The notes beneath the pieces were generated by a model, which saw only the letters and a program-made list of their open reading frames with translations, had not been told where the DNA came from and searched no databases. From assembly GCA_025093555.1 (NCBI GenBank), contig JAIWNF010000039.1, positions 62,001-126,000 on the forward strand: a stretch of 64,000 nucleotides of DNA, in the 5' to 3' direction. Shown one piece after another: positions 44,327 through 52,200 of the stretch (positions are counted from its first letter, which is position 1; every line of letters starts with the position of its first letter). The position numbers and the translations under genes are program-made. The DNA is from Circinella umbellata (taxonomy: Eukaryota > Mucoromycota > Mucoromycetes > Mucorales > Lichtheimiaceae).

Positions 44327-45134
44327 ATGGTTCTCCCGTCTCCTTGCTTTACTTCCAACACCTTCGACCCCCCCCCCTCATACAAACACACTCCTAGCTC
44401 ACTGCCAAAAACACACCCAAACACCCCATTATCACTCTTTAGGAATTAACTAGTAAAAAATAAAAAAGAACCAGTTTGCTCTAATTTACACTTTCACCTT
44501 TTGCCATTTCTCAACTACCAATAGCCCTCTTTTTCAACTAGTAATTTTCACGTCTCTCTTTCCCAACAGACAACTCCATCTCTTCTTTTTCTCAATCTTT
44601 TCTTCCTCTTTCTTACAAATTTCCCCATATATACTTTTTATAAATCAAAAATAAATAAAAATAAGTTACCTTTTTAGTAATATGTGTGTGTGTGTGTGTG
44701 TCGAAATATTATATATATATATATATAAAAGGGAGAACCTTTAAAGCAAGGGGAAGTCTAAAAAAGTACGCTTTTTTGGGAGTGTAACTATATCTGTGGG
44801 TCAGCAAAAATTATATTTTGAAGTGCGGAATCAAGTTTTTCTTCACAATTTAAATATGCATACACTTACACTCCACAAAGTATTTCAACTTCAATACAGT
44901 TGCTTTGATTCCTTGATTACCTAACAAAATAGCTCATAGTAAAAAAAATACTATTACGTAGATCCTTTTATACATTTTAATCATATTCCATTTCCCCTCT
45001 TTTATACTATCTTTCCTTTTTTTTTTTTTTGTTTTCGTTCTCGTAGTCGTAGAATCATATTTTTAGGCCTGTCTTATTGACACAAACTTCAGACCACGTC
45101 AATCTTTTTTGAAGTTTGTTGATTGCCTTGTGTT
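44003..45134. other. Rho1 promoter / Fanzor 3' flank, microsatellites
   Basis: 1.1 kb. It contains (AC)n near 44265-44296, (AT)n at 44300-44326, a poly-C run near 44370, (GT)n at 44682-44701 and a second AT run near 44710-44728. If the Fanzor relic kept its guide RNA, that RNA would overlap or follow the 3' end of its gene near 45135 on the minus strand; no such structure could be shown by eye. Confidence 0.4.
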
Positions 45135-48100
45135 TCATTGAGAATTAATACGACGAGACTTGCGGATCACTGTTTGGGGTCTTTGTCCATGTTCAAAGAT
45201 GGAAGCGGCTATAGATGCTTGCACATTTCCTGCACTTCCATCACGATGAAATTTCTTGTGGCAATTTTCGCAAACAAGGACACGAATGACTTTTTCTTTG
45301 CCTTGATTGTCCAATTTATCTTTATTGACTTGTCGACGAGGAGCAGGGGCGCTAGTGTAAATACTCCACATACATTATTTCACCTTCCATAAAACAATGA
45401 CTGTATAGTTTACTACTACAATATTCGTCAATACGTGACAAGTCGATATGATCAGGCTCTTGCCGTGCCTTGGCGTGGTCATGAAGTTTATCGGCAAATT
45501 GTCGAGCAAGTCCTGGCTTGGCGCCCTTTCGATTACCTGTATCCATTCCATCCAACCCCATACCAATCAAGAATTTGTTCTTTCTTGTAGACAGTTCTGA
45601 AAGGGCACCTTCTTCAATTGCACGTTGACGAGACGCGTCTGCCATAGTAATGATCCGTTCACATGCCTTATCAATTTCTGAGCGCATTGACATTTTTGTA
45701 TCCCAGGAACGATGAAGTTCTGCTTTGCTTGAGTGCACATCATGCAATCTAAAGCCCCGGTCTTCGGCTTGCTAGGTACGGACATTGGATGTTTTGCTGC
45801 CACCATTTTTTGCTAAATCACATTGAATGTTGTGGATTGAAGTCTGTTCGTTTCGATTTTCTAACCACTTTCTATTGATAAGTTCACGACCATAGAGTTC
45901 ATCTCGTCTAATGGTATGTTGTACACCAGGCTGATGTTCTGTATCGGTAGGAAGATAAAAGGCACCGGCAGTCCATGTTTCACCCAGATCAATTCCAAAA
46001 ACACATTCGTATTCGTCGAGAATATTTGTATCATGTTTCCCAAGCTCTTCGCATTTTCTGAATGCAAATTTACGGATTTCGGGAAGGTATTTGAATTGAC
46101 GTTGCTGTTGTTTTCGACGTGGGTGGGCCCAATCAGTTATGACAGCTTGTTAACAGACACCACTTGTTCGAAGCATGCGTATTGTGTATCGTGGGATTTG
46201 GCGTTCATTTTCAAGCATCTTGCGCAAGTCAGTGGCATGTTTGGATCGTTTGGTATTGACAAGATTTGGCAAGTCAATTACAGCACTTTTTCCCAAATCA
46301 TTAATATATGATAATGCCTCTTTAGTACTATGTACAGATCGGGCGACATCTTGCTTGAGCGTTTCGAGAGCATTATTTTCAAGAGCATCAAATATTAATG
46401 TTTGTTCTATAATTAACATAAAAAAGAGATTGATTGAAAAAAAAAGTTAGATAGAGTACTATTAATCACAAATATATCTCACTTTTTGAAACTGACGTTT
46501 TTTTGTGCTGTTAATTGTCAAAATATCTTGATGTGTTTCTGCTCGCTGAAGTTTATGATGTATATAATCCTTGGTAGATTTGATAAAGTCGCCCATATGA
46601 GTAAGTATATTTCTGGTATATGAGCCATATAATGGAATAAATACGTTCTTGCTTAGTGCCGTTGGACAAATAGAAAAGGAAAACGTTTCTGGATAATGTT
46701 CAAGAATCCGAGCCAATATAGATGATAAAATATAAGCATGCTCAGTGGATCCAGCTTCGTCTTGACTATCATTATCATCTTGGGCTTGATTTGACGCTTC
46801 ATCAGAATTAGCATCACGTTGTCGTCGTGAACCAGTCGTTGGTTGATTAACCCGTTCCATACCAAAACAGTCAAATAAGTCAACTGGCGCTTGGTTAGAA
46901 TATATATCAACCTGAGATGCTCGAGCTCCAATGGGTCTTCCAACAAATCGCTGCCACTTATTTTTTTTTTCTTGTTTGATAAATGCCACGACATCTGTTT
47001 GAACTTTTCTTGTTGCTTTTTGAAGAGCAGCGCTAGCCTCTTTACATTTTTTGCCATTTATCATGGATGAATGTCGAGCATCGACTTCAAGAGGAATTTC
47101 CCAAATTTGTGCTGTTAAATATTCAGAGAAAACCTTCTTCAGTTGTCCAACCACGAGGGACTGTTGCTTTGCGTTCCAAATGCTGATCAACTAATACCAT
47201 GGTTGCCTTCTTGCCCCTTCGACGAATACGTGCCCATGTTGATTTAATCCAGTTTTGAACACTGTTGTTGATAACTTCACCTTTGTCTTTTAGAATCTTC
47301 TCGACTTGATGATCAGTACGATCCAATGCTTCTTTTTGCCATCGACGGAGAACATAACGTCGAAATTTGTCATCACGTGACCAATCAAGTGCAGCTTGTA
47401 CTTGTTCCTTGAGTCTGACGGAAATATATCTGGAGAAGTTATCAACAAAGTGTGAAACGATTGTTTGTCGGAAGTGAATATCGATGACTTCTGCATTATC
47501 ATCCAAAACTCCTATACGAAGCCTTGATGGTAACCATGGGATATTCTGGTCATTATATCCTGCAAACCATAATTGTCGTTCATATAAAATAATTCTTCGG
47601 AGCTCTGTATTTTCACGCATAATATATGATAGACCTTTTATTGTTTTTTCGTCACCAGGATAAGCAACCAATGCTAGAGGATTAGTTGGAAGATTCTGAA
47701 TGTTATACTGGCCAAATGTTACTCTATCATAGTGAACAGTGCTGTTATCCTTGTCATAACAATGGGATCGATAATCGGCTGCACAATAAATAATTCATTT
47801 ACAGGTTTTGACCGAAGATGTTGAGAAAAATGACCTATAAACTTCTGCTTTTGAAGATTCATTAAGTTCTATTAAAGCATATCTGACAATCATATTACCT
47901 ATCAGCATTGCGATTTGCCGTACAAGGCTAAGCTGAGAAACTTCATGATAAATAACGCATGTCAACAAATTTCCCTGGTGAAGAGCAGCTGAACTAACTA
48001 TCTGACTTTTAGGATTCTTTACTTCTGACACTGCTATTGTAGAAGCTTCATGTGCATCTGTTATAGTTGATGAGGATGAAGATGGCTGTCCAACTAATTG

Positions 48101-48690
48101 ACTTTGTTGAGAAGGACGATTAAGTGGTACATAACGTTGACATGTTTTTGCTATTACTGATGAATTTAATTCACATGTCCATGTTTTCATCGCTCGAGAT
48201 ATTTGTACAACCTTTGTTTCTTCAGTAGCTCCTGGTTTACGGTAATAAATCGTCTTGGCATGCCCAGTATATAACGCAGCTGTGTTTCTGGCTGTTGATA
48301 ATCTTTCTTCATCATCTTCATCATCATCATTATTATTACTTTTATTTTTATTATCTTGAGTATTGATAGCCTTTCCTGTACCCTTTTGTTTTGTCTTTTG
48401 TCTTTGTCAGAGGGGCTTGTTCGTTGTTGTTGTCTTTTACTCAAGTTACCTTTATATCCAGGTACAGTTGCATCCATTGAAATCCTTTGAACATCACGAA
48501 TAAATAAATATCGACCTGTTTTTTTCCATTACTTGATATATCCGTGAGTGCAGATTCATGGAGACTACCGGAAGTAAGAGCGGAAGAACAATACGGCTGC
48601 GCTTCAGGACCTTGATCCGAGCTGCTAGCTACACTACTACTCGATTCAACAGCAGTACTACCAAATCGGTGCCGACAACCTCCTGACAAG
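45135..48690 (-). pseudogene. Fanzor-type RNA-guided nuclease (eukaryotic TnpB / OMEGA), degraded
   Basis: Read on the minus strand. From the 5' side: GRYLFIRDVQRISMDATVPG, YYRKPGATEETKVV, MKTWTCELNSSVI, CAADYRSHCYDKDNSTVHYD, LWFAGYNDQNIPWLPSRLRI, VQNWIKSTWARIRRRGKK, then STKEALSYINDLGKSAVIDL. The RuvC-I strand is CVFGIDLGETWTAGAF (about 45980-46030). Later come KFLIGMGLDGMDTGNRKGAK, IDEYCSSKLYSHCF (zinc-finger start) and RVLVCENCHKKFHRDG followed by SAGNVQASI (second CxxC and RuvC-III Asp). These are the diagnostic TnpB/Fanzor C-terminal motifs. The frame is broken by TAA at 46150-46152, TAG at 45772-45774, TGA at 47795-47797 and by frame changes near 45350, 47170, 48400 and 48500. The first zinc-finger cysteine is Tyr. 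One or two breaks may be introns, but not all. Probably inactive. Confidence 0.8.
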
Positions 48691-50406
48691 TCAGAGGGGA
48701 ATCAACACAGACCGAGCTCGAACGCTCTTCAAAAGAACGGAGCTGCCAATGAGCAGATTCAGATGCATTAGGTGATCCTTTTTGTTTTTGTTTTTGTTTG
48801 TGCGCTTCTTTTTGTCTTTGTATTTTTGAATGATGATGATGGTTGTGATGATGTTCTCCTTGTTGTTGTTGGTGCCGGTGCCGATCCTGGTGATGTTGTA
48901 ATTGTAATTGTAATTGTAATTGTAATTGTAATTGTAATTGTTGTTGGTCTTGTTGCTGTTGTTCTGTATCTCTTTGTTTAGAATAAGAAGTAGTTCGAAA
49001 TGTATCAAATACAGTAACAAAATACTCTTTTAATTTGAAAGCTGTAGACGATGATGATGGTGTTTAGCCATTATCTTGTTGAGGAGGACCAGTAGTAAAA
49101 ACGCAATTAGTATAAAGAGCACATTGGATATCAAAATTCGTCTTGTCGCTAACACGGTTATAGATTGATAACGAAGAGGTGAGCATTTCATCTGGATGGG
49201 TTCCAAGTCCGTCTTTTCCTTCTGATTCCACTAAATTAAGCATTTTAATTCGTAACTTGGCGAAAGAAATAACATGAATATTTTTAGCATAGTCGTTACC
49301 AGATGCCGATGCAATAACTATGAGGCGCTTTTCAGCCATATCAAAAATACTATCGTCTTGGTACTTGAAATTAAGCTTCTGAAGAACGTCACGTTTGGTA
49401 CATAATTTGGTTGTTGGTTTGATAGAGCAAGACTAGGAGTATCCCATTTAATTTCCATAATTCGCATGACATCCAAACATCCTTTGTAAACTAATAAGTC
49501 ACTATCGGAAGAGATAATAGCTGTTTAATTTTGTGGCAATGGCAACATCGAAGCCAGCTTGATAATCATGCCATCTGATTCATAAGGTGCTTGGTAATAA
49601 TAAACAGCGGGTAGAAAATCTGCTAGTAGATCAAATCTTTGATAAGTTTTCTTTAGAATTTAAAAAAAGGGTCATAAAATATGGGTCCACTACTAAAAAC
49701 GTATATACTTTTTTGACTTATTTTTTTTTCTTTCTTTTGTATATCGTGCACTTGTTTCTTTTATTTTATTTGTTTTTCTATTAGGTACGCTAATAATATA
49801 AGATTAGACCTACTTCAATAATAGCAGTCTTTATATCCGATGTAAAACGTACAGCACTTTTTGCTGCTGCTATGAAATCTTTGTTTTTGATACCACGCGA
49901 CTTGTATAGTTCCTTTGCCTCCTTGAATTTACTTGTTACGTATTGGTCGCGCTGATCATATGTTTCGGATTTTATCGGCAGGCTTTCCCCATCAAGAACC
50001 AATATAATAGAAACGTGGCATAGGATGACCGGTAACGGGGTTAAAATAGAGATTGAGGCAGCATCTAATGATATCCGCGACGATTCCAGCAGCGACTTTT
50101 TGTGTATTATCATTTATAACATCTTGGGTAGCTGTGGAAAAAGGTAAAAAAATAAATTCATGTATATGAAAATTAATATTTATTTAAGATACACAAATAA
50201 AATGTGTTATGACCTTATTACCATTTTCAAATTGAGGCTTTAAAAGATCTACAGCCCGCTTGCGTAAACCCAAAAAAAAAAAAAAGATTGACATAAATTA
50301 ATAAATACGTGGTTTACATTATTTGAATCCAAATGCTGCTTTGAATTATCATTAGAATGAAACACATTTTTTGATTGAAGTGTATTATGAATGTTCTTGA
50401 CAGCCA
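48691..50406 (-). pseudogene. XPG/FEN1-family nuclease plus Q/H-rich linker, degraded, in line with Fanzor
   Basis: Minus strand, immediately upstream of the Fanzor relic. It starts MAVKNIHNTLQ at 50406. A canonical intron (GTAATAAGG to TTTCCACAG, about 50225-50133) precedes TQDVINDNTQKVAAGIVADI, YFNPVTGHP and, after a frame change, LVLDGESLPIKSETYDQRDQ. This is an XPG-N-like pattern with its acidic Asp. Next is an XPG-I-like pattern in two frames: YYYQAPYESDG with FDVAIATKL, then AIISSDSDLLVYKGCLDVMR. The FEN1-type Asp/helix-hairpin-helix region follows as RLIVIASASGNDYAKNIHVI. After a TAA (49064-49066) the same frame runs through TFRTTSYSKQRDTEQQQQ, a (QL)n/HHQ/KQKQ linker, and toward the Fanzor part. 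Family call is from spacing of acidic motifs; function is lost or doubtful. Confidence 0.65.
48897..48940. repeat. (TAATTG)n coding microsatellite (Gln-Leu repeat in linker)
   Basis: About seven copies of a hexamer that, read on the minus strand, encodes alternating Gln-Leu inside the linker between the XPG-like and Fanzor-like parts. It keeps the reading frame, as expected for hexamer change. Confidence 0.85.
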
Positions 50407-50705
50407 TAAAATATATTTATAATTAAAAAAAAATCTATATAAAATATGAATGAATTATTAATTTTCTTTATAAAATACATTTATTATGTTTAAAAAAAAA
50501 TTAGTTTAATAACAATACCTAAAAAAATGAATAGAAATGAATAGAGAATAATAAAAAAATATAAAATTTGTAAGTTTAAGTTAGTATACTATATGAGTAT
50601 TATGTATGTAGTTAATAAAAACGAGGAGTAATATGTAAATGTTGTAGAATTTCTTTTGAATTATTGTTTTGTGTGTGAGAGAGAGTGAGTGAGAGAGAGT
50701 GCGAG

Positions 50706-50826
<121 letters not shown>

Positions 50827-51099
50827 AGTCTGAGAGAAATAGAGTGTTAATGACAAAGTCATTGATAAAAAAAATTCAAAGGAGATAAAGCAAAAGGAAT
50901 TCCCAACAGCGGGTGTATACAATTCTATTTATACCCCACGTTTTGCTTTGTGATAGGGAAAGGCTGTTGTTATCATTATGTCAGTGTACTTTTTAACAAT
51001 GAACCAATCGGAACGCATACATTGGATAAATAAAAAAGGGGGTGTTTCTTTTTTCTATTGAATGAAATAATGATTACTCTATTCTTTATACGTACTTCA

Positions 51100-51100
51100 C

Positions 51101-51146
<46 letters not shown>
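51100..51146. repeat. (ATT)n trinucleotide repeat
   Basis: About 14-15 uninterrupted ATT units in non-coding DNA between the nuclease relic and PEX3. Confidence 0.95.
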
Positions 51147-51894
51147 ATGATGGTATCATTTGAATGGCGAAAGCTTGATCTTTCTTTTGATATAATTTTT
51201 ATTTTATTCTTTGTTCAATAATTTAATGCTTGTAGTATTCAATTTCAAAATAAAAAGTGATAGAAGATTATTTGACATGACGTTATATCAAGATGTTGTT
51301 ATAATTGGTTTTTGTTGCTTACAGCATTAAGCAGTAAAGAGAGCACATTCTTTATATTGATGAACGCATGATTTCCGATTGTTACACAGAACATTACTTG
51401 AGCATAATGAATATAGAGCAGATGTAAAAGACCATGGCATCTTTTTTTTTCTGCTTCCCGCTCCTTGATTGATGATGCATAATAACAATATTTGGGGGAA
51501 AAGTGAACCATTTTTTTTGTTGAGTAAGGAACATTGACATCATTACATTAGTTTCCGCGTCTTTGATAGAAACAAAGGTAATGGTTTATGCATAAGCACA
51601 CGTATATTGATTAATATCGATTGATGTAGTACAAAGAGAATGTCATCAGAAAGTGAAAAAAAATATACTCTCTTATGATTATAAGGATAAGAAATTACTA
51701 TAGTAATAATGAAAAAGTAAGTAAGTAGGTATGGGTAGACATGGATTTCTTAGAGGAAGAAAAATAATGAACATATTTTGACAATATTTGCCTGTCATTG
51801 TGAAGATTATACTATACTATACGTGGAAAACAACAATTGATAAGCACCCGTGGTCACACTCTTTATTGACAATACATAAAAAAATAAATTAATC

Positions 51895-52200
51895 AGGTCC
51901 CAGCGAAGATCCATAATAACCCAAAGAGGGTTATTCCCTTCAGGCTCACAATAAAAGATGGTGCCCTATGTGCGAGTCCAAACTGACCAGCGAACTGGAC
52001 AGGTGGTACCGAAGTACTTTGTCTGCAAATTATAATTAACAACTTCAGCCAATGGTAATAGCCCATTAACTTTCACATCCGCACTTTAACGACTGGTTGT
52101 GATTGCTCCAAAAACCCTGAGGCACCAACTAAAGGGCACGCTTTTGGCGAGTCGGTGTTTCGTGATCTGAACAAAGGGCCGTCTCGAAAATAATGCTATT
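51895..52200. other. G/C-richer unassigned block
   Basis: Within very AT-rich surroundings this 300-bp block has balanced composition and internal complementary pieces, such as AATAACCC followed by GGGTTATT at about 51914-51933. On the minus strand fragments read TKYFGTTCPVRWSVWT and GTIFYCEPEGNNPLWVIMDL with a stop between. It may be a coding relic, a repeat or a structured RNA gene. I could not match it to a known RNA or protein. Confidence 0.35.

Follow-up and report, generated by a model that had tools for sequence, protein, structure and literature searches.

An XPG/EXO1-like nuclease probably fused to a Fanzor-type protein in a decayed mobile element of the fungus Circinella umbellata

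Do two nuclease-like sequences that follow one another on the same strand of a fungal genome form one gene or two, and what would they do together? The question is raised by a locus of Circinella umbellata (Lichtheimiaceae), a mucoralean fungus. The locus lies in a 64-kb stretch of DNA, the whole of which was analyzed and is here called the window; it corresponds to C144:62001-126000 of the 50.8-Mb assembly. On the minus strand, which is the coding strand of the mobile element described below, the window carries, in this order, XPG-like exons (50407-49028), a Gln/His/Ser-rich linker (49027-48543) and a Fanzor-type protein (48529-45135). A preliminary description had read these parts, from the sequence alone, as an XPG/FEN1-like nuclease and a Fanzor, fused or in a two-gene element. 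The motifs on which it relied were all recovered: an XPG-N-like start at 50407, VLDGES, SSDSDLL and SGNDY, and then the linker running into a Fanzor with RuvC-I (GIDLGE, 45990), a zinc finger and FHRDG (45242). We conclude that the window locus is an intron-split, dead remnant of what was probably a fusion gene. Copies are named here after their contigs: the window copy is C144, L010 is the C131 copy and L012 is the C79 copy.

Probably one gene across the join

The fusion was decided by records from outside the assembly that read through the join. A search with the XPG half yielded two proteins, P0005 (282 amino acids (aa), ENA, on a contig of 2,560 bases) and P0006 (INT45_002745 of Circinella minor, 339 aa). 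Both of them run uninterrupted from the C-terminal part of the XPG half through the linker into the N-terminal part of the Fanzor, where they enter the stretch ...GRYLFIRDVQRIPMDAT... A further C. minor record, INT45_002743 (431 aa), corresponds to the C-terminal part of the Fanzor and uses the exon junction that was predicted from the C131 copy. The locus numbers of the two C. minor records are near each other (INT45_002744 was not seen), and the longest contig is 133,838 bases for both.

The copies of the assembly are compatible with this reading to different degrees. In the C131 copy the XPG frame continues without a stop across the linker and shares its last 50 nucleotides with the Fanzor frame, so that no intergenic gap separates the two. 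In the C79 copy the XPG half, linker and Fanzor lie in one frame with no net shift, interrupted by several stops. In the window copy the join is off by one, as in C131, and the join is in frame in one of the three assembly copies. The preliminary description had also held that the frame stays open beyond a stop in the XPG part; this was confirmed as far as 48629, and the stop (49064-49066) proved to be a nonsense change relative to the C131 copy rather than the end of a gene. An open linker is in itself weak evidence, as CAA-type repeats are open in more than one frame. No TATAAA[AT] box was found near the join in the window, C131 or C79, which is a weak test.

Several observations weigh against a fusion. 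In the C131 copy the two halves lie one frame apart, the shift falling at an A-run whose length varies between copies. P0005 and P0006 are partial records; the expectation that relatives would hold both domains in one frame was borne out for the join, but the two proteins include neither a complete XPG core nor the RuvC part, and the full protein was not found as a single record. No fully intact copy was seen among the copies and outside records. Finally, a search with the spliced Fanzor half, in which 7,987 candidates were scored, yielded no homologue of at least ~609 aa, which indicates that the annotated records seen are fragments. With the two read-through proteins set against these points, we consider it highly probable that the XPG and Fanzor halves are fused in one protein.

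The two nuclease halves

The XPG half was characterised in the C131 copy, in which the motifs MGVKNI, VFIDL, DGxxLPxK, VLDGE, APYEAD, SSDSDLL and GNDY are present and the expected acidic residues are kept. We take these residues to be the catalytic ones; the I-region was aligned to Exonuclease 1 by profile. The preliminary description had allowed that this part might match no PIN/XPG profile. Matches were obtained with the Pfam family XPG_I (E=0.0013) and, with a small profile, with Exonuclease 1 (E=1.5e-6). The first, at 19.5 bits, lies below the Pfam cut-off of 24.9, which counts against the assignment, and the XPG half as a single sequence matched no PDB chain at E<=1. The second came from a five-row profile, which included the window pieces and a standalone gene on C145; Exonuclease 1 was its best match, over the stretch from DG to SDSD only, the next family member was GEN1 at 0.24, and unrelated dynein chains appeared from 0.051. 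The half shares DGxxLPxK, APYEAD, SSDSDLL, GNDY and MGVKNI/VFIDL with the XPG/FEN1/EXO1 nucleases, among which Exonuclease 1 is closest. It differs from them in being divergent, fused to a second nuclease and carried by a mobile element. The assignment of the N-terminal half to the XPG nucleases is, in our view, very probable. The standalone gene (L075, C145:1086500-1088000) is XPG-like and intron-split, has an Asn-rich tail and is 27% identical to the XPG sequence of the element; it possibly represents the source family of the captured nuclease.

For the Fanzor half, the C131 copy has D816, a relocated RuvC-II Glu (E1011), a C4 zinc finger and D1072. The motif published for Fanzors (PMC3627910), D-X(125,275)-[TS][TS]xx-C4 zinc finger-X(5,50)-RD, was found at residues 816 to 1072 and in none of 20000 shuffled versions of the C-terminal 443 aa. 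The Glu, relocated as defined in PMC10711439, lies six residues before the zinc finger (E-YCSSKL-CCHC), and this arrangement, with a widened zinc-finger gap, was matched by 2 of 20000 shuffles. Other results speak against the assignment. The strict bacterial pattern (CxxC-pair gap 12-18; PMC10711439) did not match the C131 protein, in which the gap is longer. RuvC-I reads DLG rather than DPG, which the same source describes as 'near exclusively' present in Fanzors, that is, typical and not absolute, and in C. minor the RuvC-I Asp is replaced by Asn. PF07282 matched three copies with E=4.8e-4, 2.4e-4 and 1.6e-4 (20.7-22.2 bits), under its cut-off of 26.3; no Fanzor or TnpB chain of the PDB was matched by sequence; and the candidate Fanzor pieces found elsewhere in the genome, at C134 and C200, showed no significant similarity. 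An AlphaFold2 model of the C. minor Fanzor part, built from six closely related rows, reached a pLDDT of 34. On balance the C-terminal half is in all likelihood a Fanzor and probably RNA-guided. No relatives were confirmed in viral contigs with one protein as query. Other candidate Fanzor loci of the genome are L025 (C200:171142) and L026 (C156:668025), above the PF07282 cut-off, and L027 (C134:1002832), just below it.

Fanzors are already known in mucoralean transposons (PMC3627910). The Fanzor1 elements of Mucoromycota described there (ROr-4, PBl-3, MCi-4, MCi-2 and MCi-5) are likewise transposon-like, often have no recognised transposase and share the C-terminal motif, but their target-site duplications (TSDs) are 9, 11-12 or 6 bp rather than 8 bp, and the XPG fusion is found here; the term XPG has 0 occurrences in the main text of that paper.

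In the window copy, all parts are on the minus strand. XPG exon 1 (50196-50407; XPG-N-like, MAVKNI...) has Asn in place of the expected catalytic Asp of VFIDL. Exon 2 (49814-50129) carries VLDGES, and exon 3 (49028-49659), with the core motifs APYESD, SSDSDLL and SGNDY, is broken by a frameshift and two stops. The linker (48543-49027) shares its frame with the Fanzor in P0005, P0006 and C79, in the latter with stops. The N-terminal half of the Fanzor (46498-48529) is broken. Its C-terminal exon (45138-46404), whose boundary agrees with that of C. minor P0001, holds the RuvC-I Asp (45990), the relocated RuvC-II Glu (45426), the zinc finger, in which Tyr replaces the first Cys, and the RuvC-III Asp (45242). 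Measured against the C131 copy, the coding sequence contains 6 nonsense codons; of its 16 indel runs, 8 have a length not divisible by three. A TATAAATA box lies ~530 bp upstream of the XPG start in the window and is also present in C113; the same scan found none in C131. A long CA repeat (~50708-50824) separates the TATA-like box from XPG exon 1.

The mobile element and its copies

The family is transposon-like, with 8-bp TSDs and without a clear terminal inverted repeat, and we are very confident that the locus lies in such an element. The window copy spans 44776-52137 (7,362 bp, minus strand), with ends taken from alignment with the C131, C170 and C146 copies and unrelated flanks outside them. 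It is bounded by the 8-mer ACGCTTTT on the right (44768-44775) and on the left (52138-52145); within the 64 kb this 8-mer has two plus-strand sites, at the element ends, and no third on either strand. The fullest copy (C131:217039-225278, 8.24 kb) has long open frames for both halves, and its flanks are unrelated to those of the window; the left end of the C79 copy was not seen. C131 and other copies align between common ends, GGCCTTTAGTTGGTGCC... on the left and ...CAGATATAGTTACACTCCC on the right, with a few variable bases, and have unrelated flanks. The left terminal region (52024-52137, minus strand) is found both in copies that encode XPG-Fanzor and in copies that do not.

An exact direct repeat of at least 8 bp flanks 5 of the 9 copies examined (window, C131, C170, C199 and a second C146 site); it is 8 bp long in four and 10 bp in the second C146 site. 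The first C146 site has an exact repeat of 6 bp (7 of 8 by eye), and those at C24, C159 and C163, where the ends are degraded or uncertain, are 4, 7 and 6 bp. Of 72 mismatched end pairs used as a control, 1 reached 8 bp and 2 reached 7 bp. Scans for the end motifs, with 3 mismatches allowed at most, found 10 right ends and 12 left ends and, in reversed-pattern controls, 0. Between the ends GGCCTTTAG... and ...TTACACTCCC no clear inverted repeat is seen; read by eye, they have in common a subterminal AAGTGCGGA in inverted orientation.

No transposase was recognised in the open reading frame (ORF) lists of six two-ended copies (C131, C144, C170, C146, C199 and the second C146 site), several one-ended copies being covered for only ~1.5 kb, and no autonomous partner with the same ends was recognised among the two-ended copies with ORFs listed. 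A TSD of 8 bp is typical of the hAT, P and Merlin superfamilies; the element shares this size with them but has no clear terminal inverted repeats. Academ DNA transposons encode an XPG-type nuclease, have a short TSD of 3-4 bp and their own transposase, and are not known to carry a Fanzor. Membership in MuDR was rejected, the TSD being 8 bp in four of the five exact cases and 10 bp in the fifth, with no long terminal inverted repeat, against 9 bp with a terminal inverted repeat in MuDR (PMC3627910).

The right terminal region (44776-44900, minus strand) contains a predicted stem-loop, the 3' arm of which coincides with the end of the element. The stem-loop had z-scores of -2.2 to -3.4 in all five copies folded singly; RNAalifold predicted no pairs over 14 right-end rows, and in 3 of these 14 the 5' arm is wholly or partly lost. 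Single-sequence folds alone suggest the stem-loop, which could be the end of an omega-RNA. In the left end, a block of ~114 bp (window 51892-52005) recurs by itself at C148, C139, C178, C194 and C150 and probably represents a small repeat of its own that lies within the element.

Within the assembly, searches located Fanzor sequence of the family at a minimum of nine loci (C131, C170, C144, C146, C113, C130, C79, C135 and C128) and XPG sequence at five or more (C131, C144, C79, C112 and C151), in three of which (C131, C144 and C79) XPG is followed by Fanzor in the same orientation. At C112 a remnant of XPG and linker is left. In C151 the XPG sequence ends abruptly within exon 2; the neighbouring frame looks by eye like a reverse transcriptase, and no element sequence occurs in the next 8 kb. 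Copies C170 and C146 lack the XPG sequence and half of the linker-Fanzor region; they have one deletion junction in common and different flanks, from which it follows that the form without XPG has moved in trans one or more times. In C113 and C135 other deletions join the left part of the element to the Fanzor end, the left sequence of C113 being partly inverted. C130 is a rearranged copy with inverted left-part matches, and in C128 a left-part ORF match lies ~1 kb from the Fanzor match. Seven more loci (C199, the second C146 site, C24, C159, C163, C178 and C149) retain sequence of the left part and of the right end but do not encode XPG or Fanzor.

The left part of the C131 copy, which the window copy lacks, also contains a short ORF (MTRR...MINMQNS..IIMAGS) that runs in the direction opposite to XPG-Fanzor. 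It is open for 143 aa in C131 (L028:9415-9843, minus), 190 aa in C199 (L059:1692-2261, minus) and 142 aa in C165 (L072:316-741), where the stretch 86-142 is part of a common repeat. Its N-terminal part recurs beside C135, C128, C178 and the second C146 site, and also at C137 and C158. The ORF had no Pfam match except low-complexity ones; a second gene, perhaps the mobility gene, may begin here, or the frame may be open by chance. Another small frame (...IGNHAFINIKNVL...; 82-148 aa) recurs in the left part, at 51302-51547 (minus) in the window, L010:253-552 and L059:2605-3048, and its C199 version had no Pfam match. An open frame of another, unclassified element (L012:7590-8126, minus), also without a Pfam match, lies beside or in the C79 copy. 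On C46, a 385-aa ORF with a phage-integrase/tyrosine-recombinase domain (L071:1938-3092, minus; E=4.2e-6) lies beside a left-end fragment; it was rejected as the partner of the element, as nothing links the two.

Selection, rival explanations and a possible mechanism

The ratio of nonsynonymous to synonymous substitution (dN/dS) was compared among copies. For the C-terminal exon of the Fanzor it was 0.34-0.62 in 16 of 21 pairs and 0.71 in one. For the N-terminal part it was 0.35-0.63 in the 10 pairs without C130, and 0.69-2.61 in five short comparisons with C130. The linker gave 0.75-0.94 in three pairs. We conclude that the Fanzor C-terminal exon has been under past constraint, and that the XPG data do not decide. 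Three results tell against a joint function of the halves. In the remaining four pairs, all between decayed copies, the C-terminal exon reached 0.88-0.98. The XPG half gave 0.91 (0.55-1.79) in its single pair, with no sign of constraint. The XPG-less pair C170/C146 had Fanzor values of 0.35 (0.21-0.61) and 0.39 (0.23-0.71), which means that the Fanzor may work without XPG; the C170 Fanzor is closer to C131 than to C146, so that gene conversion may blur these two values.

Of the rival explanations, the one that survives best is that the XPG half is a passenger without a role, derived from the chance capture of an XPG-like gene of the host. A dN/dS near 1 for XPG, the existence of a standalone XPG-like gene with an Asn-rich tail on C145, and the fact that XPG was not found at 6 of the 9 Fanzor loci, among the matches listed, are what it would lead one to expect. 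It fits poorly with the expected catalytic acids kept in the C131 copy and with a join kept in a second species, C. minor, and we hold it to be unlikely. A little less credible still is a role of the XPG half in transposition, by trimming flaps or ends at insertion or excision, with the Fanzor riding along or limiting copy number. The imprecise right ends and the 5'-truncated C170 copy with its perfect 8-bp repeat do resemble end processing, but constraint is seen on the Fanzor and not on XPG; the movement of XPG-less forms shows only that any XPG role can come in trans.

That XPG and Fanzor are separate or overlapping genes, giving two independently acting proteins from one transcript or by frameshifting, appears improbable to us. 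The Fanzor frame, offset by one in C131, starts with an ATG, and the XPG-less deletion copies kept their Fanzor frames at the low ratios given above; yet P0005 and P0006 cross the join without a stop, and the halves are separated neither by an intergenic gap nor, by the weak test mentioned, by a TATA box. Unrelated genes side by side by chance, the outcome that would have undone the preliminary description and for which we found no point, deserve practically no credence and were rejected: the parts share elements, in the same order and orientation at C131, C144 and C79, where those of C131 and C144 are bounded by repeats, and C. minor has the join as well.

The explanation that we prefer as a whole, and regard as evenly poised, is that the locus is a dead copy of a mobile element whose gene coded for an XPG/EXO1-like nuclease, linker and Fanzor in one protein that cut and then resected DNA. 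EXO1 acts in resection. An omega-RNA from the right end of the element would guide the Fanzor half to an empty or allelic site, which the Fanzor would cut. The fused EXO1-like half would then resect (5') or trim the cut ends, and repair would be steered into homologous recombination, restoring or copying the element. Transposition itself would be done in trans, by a transposase from outside the copies scanned. This mechanism is proposed tentatively, as somewhat short of probable. Engineered Cas9-exonuclease fusions (PMC9450370, PMC11107001) likewise join a programmable cutter to an exonuclease and are aimed at homologous recombination; they are man-made, whereas the gene of the element is natural and its activity is putative. 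That the protein might be a natural cut-and-resect homing enzyme, whose guided breaks would be driven into recombination that copies the element, we regard as doubtful.

No fusion of a Fanzor with an XPG/EXO1 nuclease was found in the literature on Fanzors and on XPG in transposons, which was covered mostly as titles and the beginnings of abstracts, an incomplete sample that does not establish absence from print. If the XPG half is a passenger, the locus still records that a Fanzor element captured an EXO1-like gene. If the fusion holds as proposed, it would offer a model from nature for editors biased towards homology-directed repair, and it would make the idea of cutting an empty site and restoring the element by recombination testable in a eukaryote. 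What Fanzors do biologically is described as unknown (PMC10432273); the presence of a repair-type nuclease in the same protein would, if true, be a direct clue to such a role, the control of break repair.

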